Of a DNA stretch of 61,719 nucleotides, positions 5,677 through 13,638 are shown in pieces. The first letter of the stretch is position 1; the number at the start of each line of letters is the position of its first letter. A model generated the notes under the pieces. That model saw only the letters and a list, made by a program, of their open reading frames with translations, searched no databases and had not been told where the DNA came from. This DNA comes from Peptoniphilaceae bacterium AM52-5BH (GTDB lineage: Bacteria > Bacillota > Clostridia > Tissierellales > Peptoniphilaceae). The DNA is taken from contig JAQEDR010000014.1 of NCBI GenBank assembly GCA_027669155.1, positions 1 through 61,719 on the forward strand, given 5' to 3'. A program made the translations under genes and the position numbers.

Positions 5677-6378
5677 ATGAGTCTTTATTCTGAGATAGTG
5701 AAGGATATTACAGAGAAAATCTCCACTATGGAAAAGGGAGATAAGATTCCTTCCGAAAGACAGCTTTGTATTGACTACGATGTGAGTAGGACCACTATTA
5801 GAAATGCTATAGGAGAGCTAGTCAATAGCGGTCTTATAGTTCAAATTCAAGGCAAGGGGAGTTTTGTTACAGGTAAGCATAATTTGAGGGACAATCTTTC
5901 GAATTATTATTCCTTCACTCAAAGAACCATAGCCAATGGGATGAAGCCAAAGTCTGAGATAATCGACTTTAGGATCAAGAAGGCCAACAAGGATTTGGCA
6001 GGACAGATGAAGCTTGAGAATATGGACTTGGTTATTGAGCTTGTAAGGCTTAGGCTTGCTGATGATGAGCCTATGATGTATGAAACAACTTACATTCCCT
6101 ATGAGAGATTTACCAATATTTCTAGAGAGCTTGTAAGTAAAAAGCCCCTCTATGATATCTTTGATGAGTCAAATGCTGCTATTTTTACAGTAAATGAGAG
6201 ATTTTCTGTTGGGAGTTTGACTAAAAAGGTTGCAAACTTCTTGGGACAGAAGGCTGACGCCCCAAGTCTTAAGATTACTAGAAAGAGCTTCGATTTTGAT
6301 GATAATTTATTAGAATATACTATATCCTACGCCAGAGGAGACAAGTTCTACTATGAAACGAGTTATAGTCCGAGATAA
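5677..6378 (+). CDS. GntR-family (HutC/UTRA) regulator of amino-sugar genes
   Basis: This cytoplasmic transcription regulator senses a sugar phosphate. The 233-residue protein has an N-terminal winged helix (residues 1-70, with the IPSERQLCIDYDVSRTTIR recognition region) and a UTRA sensor domain ending GDKFYYETSYSP, the HutC subfamily signature shared with NagR/AgaR and PhnF. The start lies five bases after agaS with no clear ribosome site, so coupling is likely. Placement between agaS and nagA points to control of this operon, and the palindrome TGGTAGTTACCA on the agaS promoter resembles NagR-type operators. Whether it also acts on the lacAB promoter cannot be told. Confidence 0.88.
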   Translation: MSLYSEIVKDITEKISTMEKGDKIPSERQLCIDYDVSRTTIRNAIGELVNSGLIVQIQGKGSFVTGKHNLRDNLSNYYSFTQRTIANGMKPKSEIIDFRIKKANKDLAGQMKLENMDLVIELVRLRLADDEPMMYETTYIPYERFTNISRELVSKKPLYDIFDESNAAIFTVNERFSVGSLTKKVANFLGQKADAPSLKITRKSFDFDDNLLEYTISYARGDKFYYETSYSPR

Positions 6379-6392
6379 GCTAAGGAGATTAA

Positions 6393-7520
6393 ATGTATTA
6401 CTCAGCTAAATATATAGTGCTAGAAGATAAAGTTTTAGAAGATTATTACATGGAAGTGGAAGATGGGAAGGTAAAGTCATTTTCCAAAGATAAACCAGAA
6501 GATTTTGAATACTTGGGAGAGATAATAGCCCCGGGTCTTGTAGATACCCACATCCACGGTTATGCCGGCAAGGATATCATGGATTGTGAAAAGGGCTATC
6601 TTAATGAAATATCCAAGGGGATTTTGGAATGTGGAGTTACAAGCTTTCTTCCAACAACCCTTACAGATACCACAGAAAAGCTTGATAAGGCTTGTGAGCT
6701 AATTGGAGCAGAGTACGAAGGCGTAGAAGGAGCCAAGATTCGTGGAATCTTCCTCGAAGGACCATTTTTCACAGAAAAGTACAAGGGAGCCCAAAATGCT
6801 TCCTACATGTCAGATCCTTCTATAGATAAGTTAAAAAGATGGAAAGAGCTTTCCAAGGGCCTTGTAAATAAAATCGCTATAGCTCCTGAAAGAGAAGGAG
6901 CAATCGACTTTATCAAACAAGCCAACGCTATGGGCGTAAGAGTTGCCCTAGGCCATTCTGATGCAAGCTTCGAAAAGGCAGTAGAAGCAGTAGATGCCGG
7001 GGCTAATATCTTCGTCCATGTCTACAATGGCATGAGTGGCCTCCACCACAGAAATCCTGGCATGGTGGGAGCTGCTATGAGGACTGACTCTATAGGAGAG
7101 TTAATATGTGACGGCCATCACGTAAATCCTGCCGCAGCAGAGATCTTGATGGACGTAAAGGGAAGAGATAGGATAGCTCTTATTACAGATTGTATGTCAG
7201 CAGGTGGTATGCCTGAAGGAGACTACAAGCTAGGAGACTTTCCTGTAATAGTAAAAGATGGAACAGCGAGACTTAAGGATGGAGGATCTCTTGCAGGGTC
7301 TATCCTAAGACTTAAGGAAGCTGTCAAAAATGTTGTAGAATGGGAGATTGCAGATGTCTTTGAGGCTATACAAATGGCAAGCCTCATTCCTGCCAAATCT
7401 GTCGGAATCGACGATGTATGTGGGAAAATCCACGAGGGCTATGATGCAGACTTCATAGTCCTTGATGAGAACCTAGACCTACTTGCGACCTTCCTAAATG
7501 GAGAAAGGGTATTTGGATGA
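6393..7520 (+). CDS. nagA: N-acetylgalactosamine/glucosamine-6-phosphate deacetylase
   Basis: This metal-dependent amidohydrolase removes acetate from an N-acetyl-hexosamine-6-phosphate. The 375-residue protein has the NagA motifs in order: the metal-binding GLVDTHIHG (about 48), FLEGPFF with the metal-binding Glu (about 122), ALGHSDAS (about 187), HVYNGMSGLHHR (about 210), DGHHVNP (about 235) and ITDCMSAGG with the catalytic Asp (about 265). Length matches NagA (about 380). Start follows AAGGAG. The next gene overlaps by four bases. With agaS downstream in the pathway, the likely substrate is GalNAc-6-phosphate (AgaA role), although NagA-type enzymes often also act on GlcNAc-6-phosphate. Confidence 0.93.
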   Translation: MYYSAKYIVLEDKVLEDYYMEVEDGKVKSFSKDKPEDFEYLGEIIAPGLVDTHIHGYAGKDIMDCEKGYLNEISKGILECGVTSFLPTTLTDTTEKLDKACELIGAEYEGVEGAKIRGIFLEGPFFTEKYKGAQNASYMSDPSIDKLKRWKELSKGLVNKIAIAPEREGAIDFIKQANAMGVRVALGHSDASFEKAVEAVDAGANIFVHVYNGMSGLHHRNPGMVGAAMRTDSIGELICDGHHVNPAAAEILMDVKGRDRIALITDCMSAGGMPEGDYKLGDFPVIVKDGTARLKDGGSLAGSILRLKEAVKNVVEWEIADVFEAIQMASLIPAKSVGIDDVCGKIHEGYDADFIVLDENLDLLATFLNGERVFG

Positions 7521-8443
7521 TACTAACGATAACAGCGAACCCTTCTGTAGATATTTCTTACCAACTAGAGAAGTTTAATATCGACGATGTAACAAGAACT
7601 AGCGATATAGAAAAACACGCCGGTGGTAAGGGAATCCATGTTGGATATGTCCTAAAGGAATTGGGGACTAAGCCTGTACATTCGGGATTTGCAGGAGGTA
7701 AGCTTGGAGAATTTATAGAAGAAGGCCTAGAAGATAGAGGCCAAGAGGCAAGATTTGTTAAGATTAAGGGAGATACAAGAAACTGTATAGCCATCCTTCA
7801 CGAAGGAAAACAAACCGAAATCCTCGAGGTAGGCCCAACTATAAGCAAGAAAGAGGAAGAAGAATTCCTAAATAAGCTCGATCAAATAAGCGAAGGTTGC
7901 CACATAATAAATATATCAGGCTCCCTTCCAAAGGGACTTACAAGTGATTTCTACAAAGAGATAATTAAGTATGCCAAAAAGCATGACAAATTTGTCTCAG
8001 TAGATACCTCTGGCAAGACCCTTAAGGACATGATCAATGCAGAAGAAAAACCAGATCTCATAAAGCCTAACGAAACAGAAATAGCTGACGTACTAGGTAG
8101 AAAGATCGAAAAGAAAGACCTTAAGGAAATTCTAAAGCAAGAACCATTTACGGATATACCATATATAATAGTATCTATGGGAAAAGACGGGGCTATGGTT
8201 AAGATTAAAGATAAAATCTACAATGCTAAGGTTCCAAAAGTAGAAGCCGTAAATCCGGTGGGAAGCGGTGATTCATCTCTTGCGGGGGCGCTTTTTGCAA
8301 TAGATGAAGGAAAATCTGATGAAGAAATAATAAAGACTTCAATGACTTGCGGTCTATTAAATGTTCTCACAGAAGAAATCGCCCATATAGAAATAGAAAA
8401 GTTTGACAAATATTTCGAAGAAATAAAAGTGGAGGAAGTATAA
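7517..8443 (+). CDS. lacC: Tagatose-6-phosphate kinase
   Basis: This cytoplasmic PfkB-family kinase phosphorylates tagatose-6-phosphate to the 1,6-bisphosphate using ATP. The 308-residue protein shows the N-terminal ITANPSVDISY strand, the substrate loop AGGKGIHVG (about residues 34-42), and the C-terminal PfkB signature NPVGSGDSSLAG (about 249-260) with the catalytic aspartate. It overlaps nagA by four bases and shares one base with lacD (TAATG junction), indicating strong coupling. LacC and 1-phosphofructokinase (FruK) are hard to separate by sequence alone, but the partner genes decide in favour of LacC. It collects flux from both the LacAB and AgaS branches. Confidence 0.93.
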   Translation: MILTITANPSVDISYQLEKFNIDDVTRTSDIEKHAGGKGIHVGYVLKELGTKPVHSGFAGGKLGEFIEEGLEDRGQEARFVKIKGDTRNCIAILHEGKQTEILEVGPTISKKEEEEFLNKLDQISEGCHIINISGSLPKGLTSDFYKEIIKYAKKHDKFVSVDTSGKTLKDMINAEEKPDLIKPNETEIADVLGRKIEKKDLKEILKQEPFTDIPYIIVSMGKDGAMVKIKDKIYNAKVPKVEAVNPVGSGDSSLAGALFAIDEGKSDEEIIKTSMTCGLLNVLTEEIAHIEIEKFDKYFEEIKVEEV

Positions 8444-9426
8444 TGAAAATTTCACAAGAAAAACTAGAAAATCTCAAAAAATTAGTAAATGAAGACGGAG
8501 CTATAGCAGCCCTTGCCATAGACCAAAGAGGATCAATGGAAAAAATGATGGGAGCAGCTAACCCTGATCTTAACAATGTCGAAGGAATCGGAGCCTACAA
8601 GGAATTAGTTTCAAAAGAACTAACACCATTTGCCTCATCAATCCTACTTGACCCAATCTATGGCGAAAAGGGAATTGCTGCTAAGGCAGAAGGAACTGGA
8701 CTCATCCTAAGCTATGAACAAACAGGTTATGATGAATACGATGAAGGAAGACTTCCAAGACTTATCAACTTCATGAGCGTACTTAGAGCAAAAGAAATGG
8801 GAGCTAACGCTATTAAGACTCTTCTCTACTATGATTGCGATGATGAAGAAGAAACAAATGACATCAAAAAAGCTTGGGTAGAAAGAGTTGGATACGAATG
8901 TGAAGGCCTAGGACTTCCACACTTCTTGGAAATTATCACCTATGATAGAAATATGGAATCTGAGAAAAACGCTGAATATGCAAAGGTAAGACCACACAAG
9001 GTAAATACTGCTATGAAAGAATTCTCTGATCCAAAATACAAGGTAGACGTTCTTAAGGTTGAAACACCAACTAACATGAACTTCGTAGAAGGACTTGGCA
9101 AGGAAGAAGCAGTATATACAAGAGAAGAAGCAATCAAACACTTCAAAGACCAATCAGACTCAACTGACCTACCATTCATCTTCCTATCAGGTGGAATTAC
9201 AGCAGAACTATTCCAAGAAACATTAAAACTTGCCAAAGAAGCAGACTCACAATTCAACGGAGTTCTCTGCGGTAGAGCAACTTGGAAAGACTCTGTAGAA
9301 ATATATGGAAAAGATCAAGAAGAAGCTAAAAAATGGCTAGAAACAACAGGAAAAGAAAACATTCAGACCCTAAATGAAGTTCTAAAAGAAACAGCTCACT
9401 CTGTTTTTGAGAAAATAGAAGAATAA
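8443..9426 (+). CDS. lacD: Tagatose-1,6-bisphosphate aldolase
   Basis: This class I, Schiff-base aldolase splits tagatose-1,6-bisphosphate into glyceraldehyde-3-phosphate and dihydroxyacetone phosphate. The 327-residue protein has typical LacD features: AIDQRGSMEKMM near residue 25, LLDPIYGEKG near 66, the KTLLYYDCD segment near 125, and VDVLKVETP near 200 where the Schiff-base lysine lies. C-terminal LSGGITAELF and LCGRATW match LacD. Length equals known LacD (about 326). Start follows GGAGG five to nine bases upstream and overlaps the end of lacC by one base. It completes the tagatose pathway, and a bidirectional terminator follows at 9432-9473. Confidence 0.95.
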   Translation: MKISQEKLENLKKLVNEDGAIAALAIDQRGSMEKMMGAANPDLNNVEGIGAYKELVSKELTPFASSILLDPIYGEKGIAAKAEGTGLILSYEQTGYDEYDEGRLPRLINFMSVLRAKEMGANAIKTLLYYDCDDEEETNDIKKAWVERVGYECEGLGLPHFLEIITYDRNMESEKNAEYAKVRPHKVNTAMKEFSDPKYKVDVLKVETPTNMNFVEGLGKEEAVYTREEAIKHFKDQSDSTDLPFIFLSGGITAELFQETLKLAKEADSQFNGVLCGRATWKDSVEIYGKDQEEAKKWLETTGKENIQTLNEVLKETAHSVFEKIEE

Positions 9427-10158: not shown

Positions 10159-10452
10159 GTTTACACCTCTAGGCTATTTTACCCCTATTTCGAATCTTTA
10201 GTATATTTATAAAAAATAAACGATTAAAAGTATTAGAATTGGGCTATATATAGACTAGGAAAAGCTTTTTAGATTTGCTTTCAATTTATCCTAAAATATA
10301 GTAGAATTTCTTAGCTAAGATTAAACTATTTCATAAAAATTTTAGATATATTAGTAAGAATTTTATAAATATTTTGACAGGTAAATATATTTGACAAATC
10401 TTTTTATTAAGGCTACAATTTAAGTAGATGACAATTATAAAAGGAGGATTTT
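10159..10452. other. Intergenic region, divergent genes
   Basis: This 294-base AT-rich gap holds the acyl-CoA dehydrogenase promoter at its right end and presumably the lipoprotein promoter on the other strand at its left end. I see no other structure or small gene. Confidence 0.55.
10391..10419 (+). promoter_or_regulatory. Promoter of acyl-CoA dehydrogenase fusion gene
   Basis: TTGACA (10391-10396), a 17-base spacer and TACAAT (10414-10419) make a strong sigma-A promoter. The start would fall near 10426, giving a short leader before the AAAGGAGG ribosome site. Confidence 0.8.
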
Positions 10453-12381
10453 ATGCTTTTTAAGACAACAGATCAACATGAGGCCCTACGTAAAAAAGTT
10501 AGAGCTTTTGCTGAAGAAAAAGTAAAACCAATAGCATTCGACCTAGATCAAAAAAATGAGTTCCCAGATGATATAGTTAAAGAAATGGGAGAATTAGGAT
10601 TTTTAGGAATACCTTATCCTAAAGAATATGGTGGTCAAGGTCTTGACGTTATTTCTTATGCAATCGTTGTAGAAGAATTATCTAGAGTAGACGGCGGTGT
10701 TGGTGTAATTTGTTCAGCACATACATCTTTGGGTTCATGGCCAATTTTTGCTTTTGGTACAGAAGAACAAAAGAAAAAATACCTAACTCCACTTGCTAAG
10801 GGTGAAAAACTTGGTGGATTTGGACTTACAGAAGAAAACGCAGGTTCAGATGCTGGTGGAACAGAAACTACAGCAGAACTTGATGGCGATAATTACATCC
10901 TTAATGGTAAAAAAATATTCATTACAAATGCTCCAAAAGCTGATACATATGTAGTATTCGCAGTTACTACACCAGGTATAGGAACACATGGAATTTCAGC
11001 TTTCATAGTAGAAAAAGACTTCGAAGGATTTACCTTCTCTGATCACTACGACAAGCTAGGTATCAGATCATCTTCTACAGCTGAACTTCACTTTGAAAAT
11101 GTTAAAGTTCCAAAAGAAAACTTACTAGGTAAGGAAGGTCAAGGATTTAAGATTGCTATGGCTACCCTAGACGGTGGTAGAATTGGTATAGCATCTCAAG
11201 CTTTAGGTATAGGGCAAGGCGCTTATGAATCTGCACTTGCTTACGCTAAAGAACGTGAACAATTTGGTCTTCCAATAGCTCACTTACAAGCAAACACATT
11301 TAAACTTGCTGATATGGCAACTCACCTACATGGTGCAAGACTTATGATTTATCATGCAGCAGAACTAAAAGAAAATCACGAAAGATACTCTGCAGAAGCT
11401 GCTATGGCTAAACAAGTTGCATCAGACCTTGCTATGAAGATTGCGACAGAAGCTGTACAAATCTACGGTGGTTCTGGATTTATCAAGGGTGTCGATGTTG
11501 AAAGATTCTTCAGAGACGCTAAGATTACACAAATCTATGAAGGTACTAACGAGATCATGAGAGTTGTAGTTGGTGCTAATACCGTAGGTCGTGCTCCAAA
11601 GATGAAAAGAGCGGGGGGAAGAGGCAAGGATGCCGGCCCAATAGCAGGCTTGCGTAAGAAAGAAATCTACACAGGAGATCCAAAAGAAGCAGTTAAAAAG
11701 CTCGTTGCAGCTCTTAAAAAAGACGGATATGACTTCACAGTTGGAATCGATCCAAATACACCAATCCCAGAAGCACAAAGAGTAGTTGTAGCAGGTCGTG
11801 GTATTGGTGAGAAGAAAAACATGAAACTAATCGAAGATTTAGCTTACCAAGCAGGTGCAGCTATTTCATCATCAAGACCAGTTGCAGAAACACTTAAATA
11901 CGTTCCACTAGAAAGATATATCGGTATGAGTGGTCAAACCTTTAAGGGTAACCTCTACATCGGAGTCGGAGTATCAGGAGCAGGCCAACACTTAAAGGGA
12001 ATGAAAAACGCTTCAACAATCGTTGCAATCAACAGCAGTGCTAATGCTCCAATCTTTAACAACTGTGACTACGGTATCGTAGGAGATGCTATGGTAATCC
12101 TTCCACTGCTTATCAAAGAACTTGATAATGGAGAAGACAAGAAGCCAGCACCACCAATGAAGAAGATGAAAAGATCTAAACCAAGAAAAATGGCTCCCAA
12201 AGAAGATATTTACGTGGATTTGGGATCTGGTTACGAATATGACCCAGAAGTAGGCGATCCTACACAAGGAGTTGAACCAGGAACACCATTTGACAAATTG
12301 CCAGATGAATGGGTAAGTCCAGTTTCTGGAGAAGCTAAAGAAGAATTCATCAAAGTAGAATTCCCAGAAGACAGAAAGTAG
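10453..12381 (+). CDS. Acyl-CoA dehydrogenase / EtfA C-domain / degenerate rubredoxin fusion
   Basis: This 642-residue protein joins three redox modules. Residues 1-378 are a short-chain acyl-CoA dehydrogenase with [13 protein letters not shown] (FAD/substrate loop) and [10 protein letters not shown], whose Glu363 is the catalytic base. Residues about 385-556 match only the C-terminal FAD-binding domain of electron-transfer flavoprotein alpha ([21 protein letters not shown] and [15 protein letters not shown]); the EtfA N-domain and EtfB are absent. After a Lys/Pro linker, residues 585-636 align with rubredoxin ([25 protein letters not shown]). All four iron-ligand cysteines are replaced, by Asp589, Ser592, Ser622 and Ser625. 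The next gene, 12 bases away, encodes a flavodiiron protein, the usual partner of rubredoxin. Expected path: acyl-CoA to FAD to ETF-FAD to oxygen reductase. How electrons leave without a Fe centre is unknown. Confidence 0.92.
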
Positions 12382-12393
12382 TAGGAGGATTTA

Positions 12394-13638
12394 ATGTATA
12401 CAGTTAGAAAAGTAACAGATGATTTATATTATGTAGGTGGGGACGATAGAAGACTTGCCTTATTTGAGAATATATTTCCTATTCCTCAAGGAGTCTCTTA
12501 CAATTCATACCTACTAATGGACGAAAAAACAGTCCTAATCGACTCAATAGATTGGGCTGTAACAAGAGAATATATGGTAAATATAGCAAGAGTTCTAGAC
12601 GGTCGTGACCTAGACTACATGATAGTTCACCACATGGAACCTGACCACTGCTCAGCTATAGAGCTTATGCTACAAAGATATCCAAACATGAAGATAATCT
12701 CTTCTGAAAAGGGAGTTATGTTTATGAGACAATTTGGTTATCACGTAGATGATAGATACATCGAAGTAAAAGAAGGCGACACCTTTAGCTTTGGTAAACA
12801 CGAATTTACTTTCGTAGAAGCTCCAATGGTTCACTGGCCAGAAGTACTAATGAGCTATGATAGCACAGACAAAGTATTATTCTCAGCAGATGCCTTCGGT
12901 TCATTTATAGCAAACAACGGTAGACTATTTGCTGACGAAGTAGATTGGGACAGAGACTATCTAGACGAAGGACGTAGATACTACACAAATATCGTAGGTA
13001 AATACGGTACATTCGTACAAAAAGCCCTAGAAAAAGCTGGTGGCCTAGATCTTAAATATATCTGCCCACTTCACGGACTAGTTTGGAGAGATAACTTCGG
13101 ATATATTATCGACAAATACGTTCACTGGGCAACTTATGAGCCTGAAAAAGAAGGTGTATTGATTGTATATGCATCAATGTACGGTAATACAGAATTCGCA
13201 GCTCAAGCCCTTGCGAGCAAACTATGCGAAGCGGGAATTACAGATATCTCACTAAGAGACGTATCAAACACAGATGTTTCTACTCTAATAGCAGAGACAT
13301 TCAAATACTCCAACCTAGTACTTGCATCTGTAACCTATAACCTAGGCATCTATCCAAAGATGAAGGACTTCCTAAACGATATGGCTGCTCTTAACGTACA
13401 AAACAGAGCTGTTTCAATCATAGGAAATGGTACATGGGCTCCACAAGCAGCAGAAAAAATGGAAAAATTCCTTGACGAAGAAATGAGACTAATGGACGTA
13501 CTTCCAGAAGGACTCGATATAGTATCAAGCCTTAAATCATCAAAAGAAGGCGATATGGACGCTATAGTTGAAGGAATCAAAGACTCTATGAAGAAACGTA
13601 GAGAAGAAAAAGAAAAGGCTGCTTCACAAAAGAAATAA
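12394..13638 (+). CDS. Flavodiiron protein (FprA-type oxygen/NO reductase)
   Basis: This cytoplasmic enzyme reduces oxygen to water (or NO to N2O), protecting anaerobes. The 414-residue protein has a beta-lactamase-like diiron domain with all ligands visible: HHMEPDH (His80, Glu82, Asp84, His85 region), His147 in MVHWPEV, Asp166 in SADAFGS and His227 in CPLHGLVW. A flavodoxin domain follows from about residue 254 (VYASMYGNTEFAA FMN loop), and a short Lys/Glu tail ends the chain. The start follows AGGAGG. It lies 12 bases after the dehydrogenase fusion and shares its promoter, implying that the fusion supplies electrons. A terminator follows. Oxygen versus NO preference cannot be read from sequence. 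Confidence 0.94.
   Translation: MYTVRKVTDDLYYVGGDDRRLALFENIFPIPQGVSYNSYLLMDEKTVLIDSIDWAVTREYMVNIARVLDGRDLDYMIVHHMEPDHCSAIELMLQRYPNMKIISSEKGVMFMRQFGYHVDDRYIEVKEGDTFSFGKHEFTFVEAPMVHWPEVLMSYDSTDKVLFSADAFGSFIANNGRLFADEVDWDRDYLDEGRRYYTNIVGKYGTFVQKALEKAGGLDLKYICPLHGLVWRDNFGYIIDKYVHWATYEPEKEGVLIVYASMYGNTEFAAQALASKLCEAGITDISLRDVSNTDVSTLIAETFKYSNLVLASVTYNLGIYPKMKDFLNDMAALNVQNRAVSIIGNGTWAPQAAEKMEKFLDEEMRLMDVLPEGLDIVSSLKSSKEGDMDAIVEGIKDSMKKRREEKEKAASQKK

Follow-up and report, generated by a model that had tools for sequence, protein, structure and literature searches.

A rubredoxin-like domain without its four iron ligands in a predicted acyl-CoA-oxidizing fusion protein of the Anaerococcus group

What becomes of a rubredoxin domain, fused into an electron-transferring enzyme, when every residue that would hold its iron has been replaced? 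The question is raised by a gene at positions 10453..12381 (plus strand, as are all features given below) of the window, by which we mean the whole stretch of 61,719 nucleotides analyzed here from Peptoniphilaceae bacterium AM52-5BH (contig JAQEDR010000014.1). The gene encodes a BCR-type fusion of 642 amino acids, 99% identical to an Anaerococcus marasmi protein (locus L001), an identity that most likely assigns the window to the A. marasmi group. In this fusion Pfam finds PF02771, PF02770, PF00441, PF00766, and PF00301 in that order on one chain. The first three families cover an acyl-CoA dehydrogenase part (residues 1 to 380; 10453..11592), where E363 of the YEGT motif is retained, a residue that is nearly invariant across 64 aligned rows. 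An EtfA FAD-binding domain (residues 438 to 558; 11764..12126) matches PF00766 and EtfA chains of the PDB with E values down to 2.6e-27. A Lys- and Pro-rich linker (residues 559 to 585; 12127..12207) leads to a rubredoxin-fold domain without cysteines (residues 586 to 632; 12208..12348), recognized by profile match, PDB matches, and alignment. Directly downstream is a gene for a flavodiiron protein (FDP; 12394..13638) with ODP beta-lactamase and flavodoxin domains. Two consecutive TAG codons close the fusion, and in the same frame, three codons on, stands the start codon of the FDP (12379-12396). A promoter-like site, TTGACA-17-TACAAT (10391..10419), found by a consensus scan with 11 of 12 matches, stands 33 bases upstream of the fusion start codon; it is weak evidence, because the region holds 16 such sites against 11.7 expected. 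Farther upstream (5677-9426), genes judged by eye from their translations run in one direction; their putative products are a GntR-type regulator, a protein resembling N-acetylglucosamine-6-phosphate deacetylase, a PfkB-type sugar kinase, and an aldolase.

Judged by sequence, the fusion and the FDP form a pair of the butyryl-CoA oxygen oxidoreductase (BOOR) type known in Fusobacterium. According to the available parts of PMC12288474 and PMC12630350, BOOR of Fusobacterium nucleatum consists of BCR and FDP, encoded by FN1423-FN1424. The complex of the BCR fusion with the FDP is described, in the accessible text of the review PMC12288474 and also of PMC12630350 and PMC13404960, as oxidizing butyryl-CoA and reducing O2 to water, a recently described removal of O2 by anaerobes with acyl-CoA electrons (PMC12288474, PMC13404960). 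The pair in the window shares with F. nucleatum BOOR the order acyl-CoA dehydrogenase, EtfA C-terminal domain, rubredoxin, as well as the co-encoded FDP. The fusion of Fusobacterium gastrosuis (locus L067) is 69% identical to that of the window. However, L067 has four cysteines and S-A-I at residues 446, 504, and 507, whereas in the Anaerococcus group the four iron ligands are replaced and these three residues are changed. The primary BOOR paper is reportedly that of Bystrom and Wolthers in 2024. The literature listings searched, which covered few subscription journals, contained no description of a BCR whose rubredoxin domain lacks its cysteines. The Anaerococcus-group enzyme is a new variant of a system that is itself already known.

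The four positions at which rubredoxin has its ligand cysteines are occupied by D589 (12217..12219, codon GAT), S592 (12226..12228, TCT), S622 (12316..12318, AGT here and TCN or AGY among species), and S625 (12325..12327, TCT). Both CXXC-type iron-binding pairs are thus absent, and D-S-S-S is read in all 30 Anaerococcus-group rows. The preliminary description had placed D..S and S..S in a rubredoxin-like domain at 12202-12375; the exact residues are confirmed, and the bounds fit. Searched alone, the domain matches PF00301 with an E value of 3e-15 and 56.4 bits, against a cut-off of 23, and matches PDB rubredoxins with E values down to 8.7e-16. It resembles the family in profile score, aromatic core, and Gly, Pro, and Lys positions, but cysteine is missing from all four ligand positions. 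Six aromatic core positions are invariant across the 30 rows; the available part of PMC3945938 assigns such a cluster an important role in stabilizing Pyrococcus furiosus rubredoxin, and the mapping of that cluster onto the fusion was made in this analysis. Residues inside the ligand loops have turned hydrophobic: position 590 (12220..12222) is leucine in 28 of the 30 rows and mostly P, N, or Q in 55 family relatives, and position 624 (12322..12324) is valine in all 30 and mostly E or K in the relatives.

We strongly infer from these replacements that the domain is iron-free. It would likely still fold, because PFRD-XC4 (PDB 1qcv), a laboratory rubredoxin without its cysteines, folds without iron according to the accessible text of PMC3945938. 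That protein was made in the laboratory, whereas the fusion domain occurs in nature as a module of an enzyme, with Asp and Ser at the ligand positions. In the alignment, three of the four positions in 1qcv are Thr, Ala, and Thr, whereas the available text of PMC3945938 says serine. Modeling of the domain from D-S-S-S rows (hereafter DSSS) alone gave a rubredoxin-like structure of middling confidence (pLDDT 73, pTM 0.47, with two of five models below 50), which Foldseek superposed on rubredoxins at about 6 Å rmsd. The 50 rows listed by a Foldseek search of the full-length model against the PDB were all acyl-CoA dehydrogenases and were uninformative on the rubredoxin part.

The ligand loss is a fixed, selected feature of one genus group. 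Full-length fusions were found in 29 of 31 Anaerococcus-group genomes, and all 29 read D-S-S-S; G018 and G031, genomes of unstated completeness, showed none. A 201-row set, assembled from the window, 80 genome loci, and the best 120 of 6113 protein relatives, with many rows from the same species, contained 85 DSSS rows, 116 rows with four cysteines (CCCC), and no mixed states. A family search over 130 genomes yielded, among the matches listed, full-length fusions outside the Anaerococcus group from 58 genomes. Four cysteines are carried by all 55 of these relatives that were aligned, which overlap the 201-row set, and the remaining three genomes (G009, G010, and G011) are likewise CCCC. L166, whose genome also contains L014, is the closest of these cysteine-bearing relatives, with 79% identity. 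In a tree of 70 rows, computed with the rubredoxin columns and residues 446, 504, and 507 left out, the nine sampled DSSS rows formed one clade (support 100) nested within cysteine-bearing fusions, and a single loss on the stem of the Anaerococcus group, since kept, is therefore most likely. In a class-wide sample of 391 genomes, no other lineage with a serine-type loss was seen: all 26 readable motifs among the 27 new loci, which represent best matches only, were CCCC (14 fusions and 12 free rubredoxins), and L271 gave no readable motif.

A sequencing error or a private defect is excluded, since all 29 genomes agree and the codons vary synonymously. The 30 rows use GAT and GAC at 589; TCA, TCT, and AGT at 592; TCA, AGT, AGC, and TCT at 622; and TCA and TCT at 625, so that both serine codon families (TCN and AGY) occur and the amino acids stay constant. 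The broader proposal of either a sequencing or assembly error or a functionless domain in decay has a negligible probability in our estimate: nothing was found in its favor, the same four residues recur in 29 genomes and 70 protein clusters, and the domain has evolved under purifying selection, with a dN/dS of 0.083 within the Anaerococcus group (29 rows). In the same rows, the dehydrogenase part gave 0.057, the EtfA domain 0.088, and the first linker 0.133; 18 cysteine-bearing relatives (from L188-L206) gave 0.158 for rubredoxin, 0.109 for the dehydrogenase, 0.130 for EtfA, and 0.194 for the first linker. These values come from a simple counting method with dS near 1 and are rough. All domains have lower values in Anaerococcus, and the ratio of rubredoxin to dehydrogenase is 1.46 in the Anaerococcus group and 1.45 in the cysteine-bearing relatives; the constraint on the rubredoxin domain relative to the dehydrogenase is therefore about equal with and without the cysteines.

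The replacement of the ligands is more than chance would give. Fourteen columns of the domain are invariant in the 55 cysteine-bearing relatives; of these, the four ligand columns and no others differ throughout the 30 Anaerococcus-group rows, which retain the remaining ten; given that 4 of 14 invariant columns changed, the chance of hitting exactly the ligands is 1 in 1001. Across the whole protein, 213 columns are invariant in the 55 relatives and five are changed in all 30 rows, namely the four ligands and residue 504 (A to G) in the EtfA FAD domain; nine further such columns are altered in only part of the 30 rows. Selection on the shape of the domain, suggested earlier from the single sequence, is now well supported by comparison among homologues, through purifying selection, the ten other invariant residues and six aromatic positions that are kept, and fixation in the genus group.

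Could the D-S-S-S site have exchanged its iron for another, hard metal ion, such as Zn, Ca, Mg, or ferric iron bound by oxygen, which stabilizes the fold, whether redox active or not? The fixation of D and S in 30 of 30 rows despite codon drift, with both TCN and AGY at 592 and 622, would fit such a site. However, 33 of the 47 positions of the domain are invariant within the Anaerococcus group, so that fixation of D-S-S-S by itself proves no special role of the side chains, and the neighboring positions have turned hydrophobic, as L590 and V624. A set of three serines and one aspartate would, moreover, be unusual for binding a metal, and we regard the hard-metal site as quite improbable.

The partner gene has been kept with the fusion. 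In all 14 DSSS loci examined, no more than about 16 bases separate the fusion from an FDP gene that lies downstream in the same orientation. The FDP has the make-up of class A, with ODP beta-lactamase and flavodoxin domains and with H80, E82, D84, H85, H147, D166, and H227, which we take from the family to be the seven di-iron ligands and which are intact in all 30 Anaerococcus-group rows. Docking of the rubredoxin domain to the neighboring FDP is plausible, because the pair is co-encoded in all 14 loci and because the F. nucleatum proteins form a complex, as the available part of PMC12288474 describes. Three FDP differences are fixed in the Anaerococcus group, N17D, E91L, and H307N; the residues replaced occur in 53, 51, and 54 of the 55 relatives, respectively. 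Taken with the loss of the carrier described for the step from the EtfA flavin to the FDP, these differences lend something to the idea that the pair is no longer an oxygen reductase, either because the dehydrogenase is uncoupled from the FDP or because the domain is regulatory or switches partners, with electrons going elsewhere. Such a loss of function is improbable in our view, given the intact di-iron ligands, the gene pair held together in 14 of 14 loci, and the low dN/dS of the dehydrogenase and EtfA parts. Among 12 FDPs located near fusions that lack a rubredoxin domain, position 91 is E in only one; N is found at position 17 in 11 and H at position 307 in 10, so that positions 17 and 307 do not track the absence of rubredoxin. 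In G006, a second FDP beside the fusion (G006:C1:877802-878393) looks broken, lying in two pieces in different frames with an internal stop in one, and the corresponding copies in G005 and G007 sit in open frames of normal length.

The EtfA flavin domain differs as well. Residues V446 (11788..11790), G504 (11962..11964), and V507 (11971..11973) correspond by alignment to human EtfA residues S220, A277, and I280, and 446 and 504 fall in predicted strands 443-447 and 501-505. The three read V-G-V in all 85 DSSS rows of the wider set and S-A-I in 115 of its 116 CCCC rows. Taken singly in CCCC rows, 446 is S in 116 of 116 rows of the wider set and 54 of 55 of the family set, and G in 3 of 18 of a third set; 504 is A in 115 of 116, 55 of 55, and 18 of 18, respectively; and 507 is I in all 116 of the wider set, with V in 3 of 55 family rows and 1 of 18 in the third set. 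Residue 398 is A in all 30 Anaerococcus-group rows and T in 53 of 55 family relatives. A test for correlated change between iron loss and EtfA had five independent pairs and gave median P values of 0.125 for 446 and 0.5 for both 504 and 507; the match is not significant, because the independent pairs are too few. The informative pairs ran in one direction for 446 and 504 and nearly always so for 507, where some pairings were reversed. Rows without a rubredoxin domain (87, including many close Anaerococcus kin and a few fragments) have G504 in 72 and a nonserine residue at 446 in 75, and S-A-I is kept in 8. Rows without the dehydrogenase part, mostly stand-alone EtfA and including at least one fragment, have S-A-I in 29 of 31.

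Gene conversion from a rubredoxin-less paralogue was considered as the source of V446, G504, and V507 and is not supported. An EtfA-only tree, built on few columns, grouped the nine DSSS rows with two cysteine-bearing ones, 11 rows in all (support 96). Identity to the cysteine-bearing L166 exceeded that to L167 and L170 in eight of nine 20-residue stretches between 381 and 559; in stretch 501-520 it was 0.80, versus 0.70 for L167 and 0.75 for L170, and in 401-420 the order was reversed (0.50 versus 0.70 and 0.65).

Anaerococcus and some relatives also carry shorter fusions, of about 560-590 residues, in which nothing follows the EtfA domain. Of 21 such rubredoxin-less loci, 12 lie near an FDP (L167-L170, L175, L176, L240, L241, and L243-L246), most directly adjoining it, with L246 about 1.5 kb off. 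Like the fusion in the window, these have the dehydrogenase and EtfA domains, a nearby FDP, and mostly G504 and a nonserine 446; they differ in having no rubredoxin domain, in being only about 60-66% identical to it, and in that the FDP is mostly on the opposite strand (11 of the 12). L244, from a genome outside Anaerococcus, has the fusion and then the FDP on one strand, which is the BOOR gene order, and no rubredoxin gene was found in the 6.8 kb examined there. Eight of the 21 loci had no FDP in the stretch examined (L171-L174, L183, L184, L239, and L242); among these, L171, L173, L183, L184, and L242 make up a second rubredoxin-less class at 50-53% identity, with A-G-I at 446, 504, and 507. 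At L216 (genome G068), a rubredoxin-less fusion and a cysteine-bearing one form a tandem with a single FDP. The 70-row tree requires five changes to account for the rubredoxin-less state, and branches with good support force at least four of these. The existence of rubredoxin-less fusion and FDP pairs suggests that the fused rubredoxin is not indispensable, although these pairs do not establish direct transfer, because every family genome searched for a free rubredoxin also has one.

The free rubredoxins bear on a further explanation, in which the fused domain no longer carries electrons and a free, cysteine-bearing rubredoxin relays them in trans from the EtfA flavin to the FDP; the fused domain would then only maintain the shape of the complex or help bring in the free protein. 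A short-frame match to free rubredoxin was present in all 31 Anaerococcus-group genomes, which makes such a relay possible and counts against a direct route, and the Anaerococcus sequences examined have four cysteines. However, the stretches examined around L167, L170, and L244 contained no free rubredoxin gene close to the fusion or the FDP, and the free rubredoxins at L177, L179, and L181 occupy other neighborhoods. The A. marasmi genome has two of them in tandem (L177, 6712-6894 and 7046-7204), away from the fusion. Four cysteine-bearing relatives (G008-G011) also have a free rubredoxin, so that its presence does not track ligand loss, and the retained domain probably fills the site that a free rubredoxin would need. 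No genome with a rubredoxin-less fusion yet no free rubredoxin was found among those searched; among the genomes checked, only that of F. gastrosuis (G012) shows no free rubredoxin, and its fusion is cysteine-bearing. We consider relay in trans doubtful.

The reading that we favor, with a probability of about one half, is that of a BOOR-type pair whose fused rubredoxin has lost its iron and whose electrons pass directly from the EtfA FAD to the FMN of the FDP. An acyl-CoA donor, butyryl-CoA or similar, would be oxidized by the fusion, and O2 would be reduced at the di-iron site of the FDP. The iron would have been lost from the rubredoxin domain in the group's ancestor, the cysteines giving way to D-S-S-S in a fold held without metal, and the residues next to the former iron site becoming hydrophobic. 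The iron-free domain may have been retained as a structural or docking piece of the complex. Electrons of the dehydrogenase FAD would then reach the EtfA FAD and move straight on to the FMN of the FDP, skipping the rubredoxin step, and the changes at 446, 504, and 507 may reflect an EtfA flavin domain adjusting to its new acceptor. Within this scheme we infer that one flavin passes electrons directly to the next, how the EtfA changes are to be read, and that O2 serves as the acceptor in this genus. A more specific version, put forward tentatively, is that the domain is a metal-free clamp, that the EtfA pocket was retuned (S446V, A504G, and I507V) for direct FAD-to-FMN transfer, and that several other lineages may have come to the same result by dropping the rubredoxin domain altogether.

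Anaerococcus offers a natural mutant in all ligands. Its near relatives can serve as cysteine-bearing controls, and the genus itself also has paralogues that lack the rubredoxin domain; whether rubredoxin is an obligatory wire or partly a scaffold in BOOR is therefore testable with purified proteins. It is a clean natural case of an electron-transfer domain that is without its metal site and still under selection, comparable to the iron-free rubredoxin made in the laboratory. If the favored reading is true, a metal-free rubredoxin would have arisen naturally inside an oxygen-reducing enzyme, and its electron chain would have been shortened.
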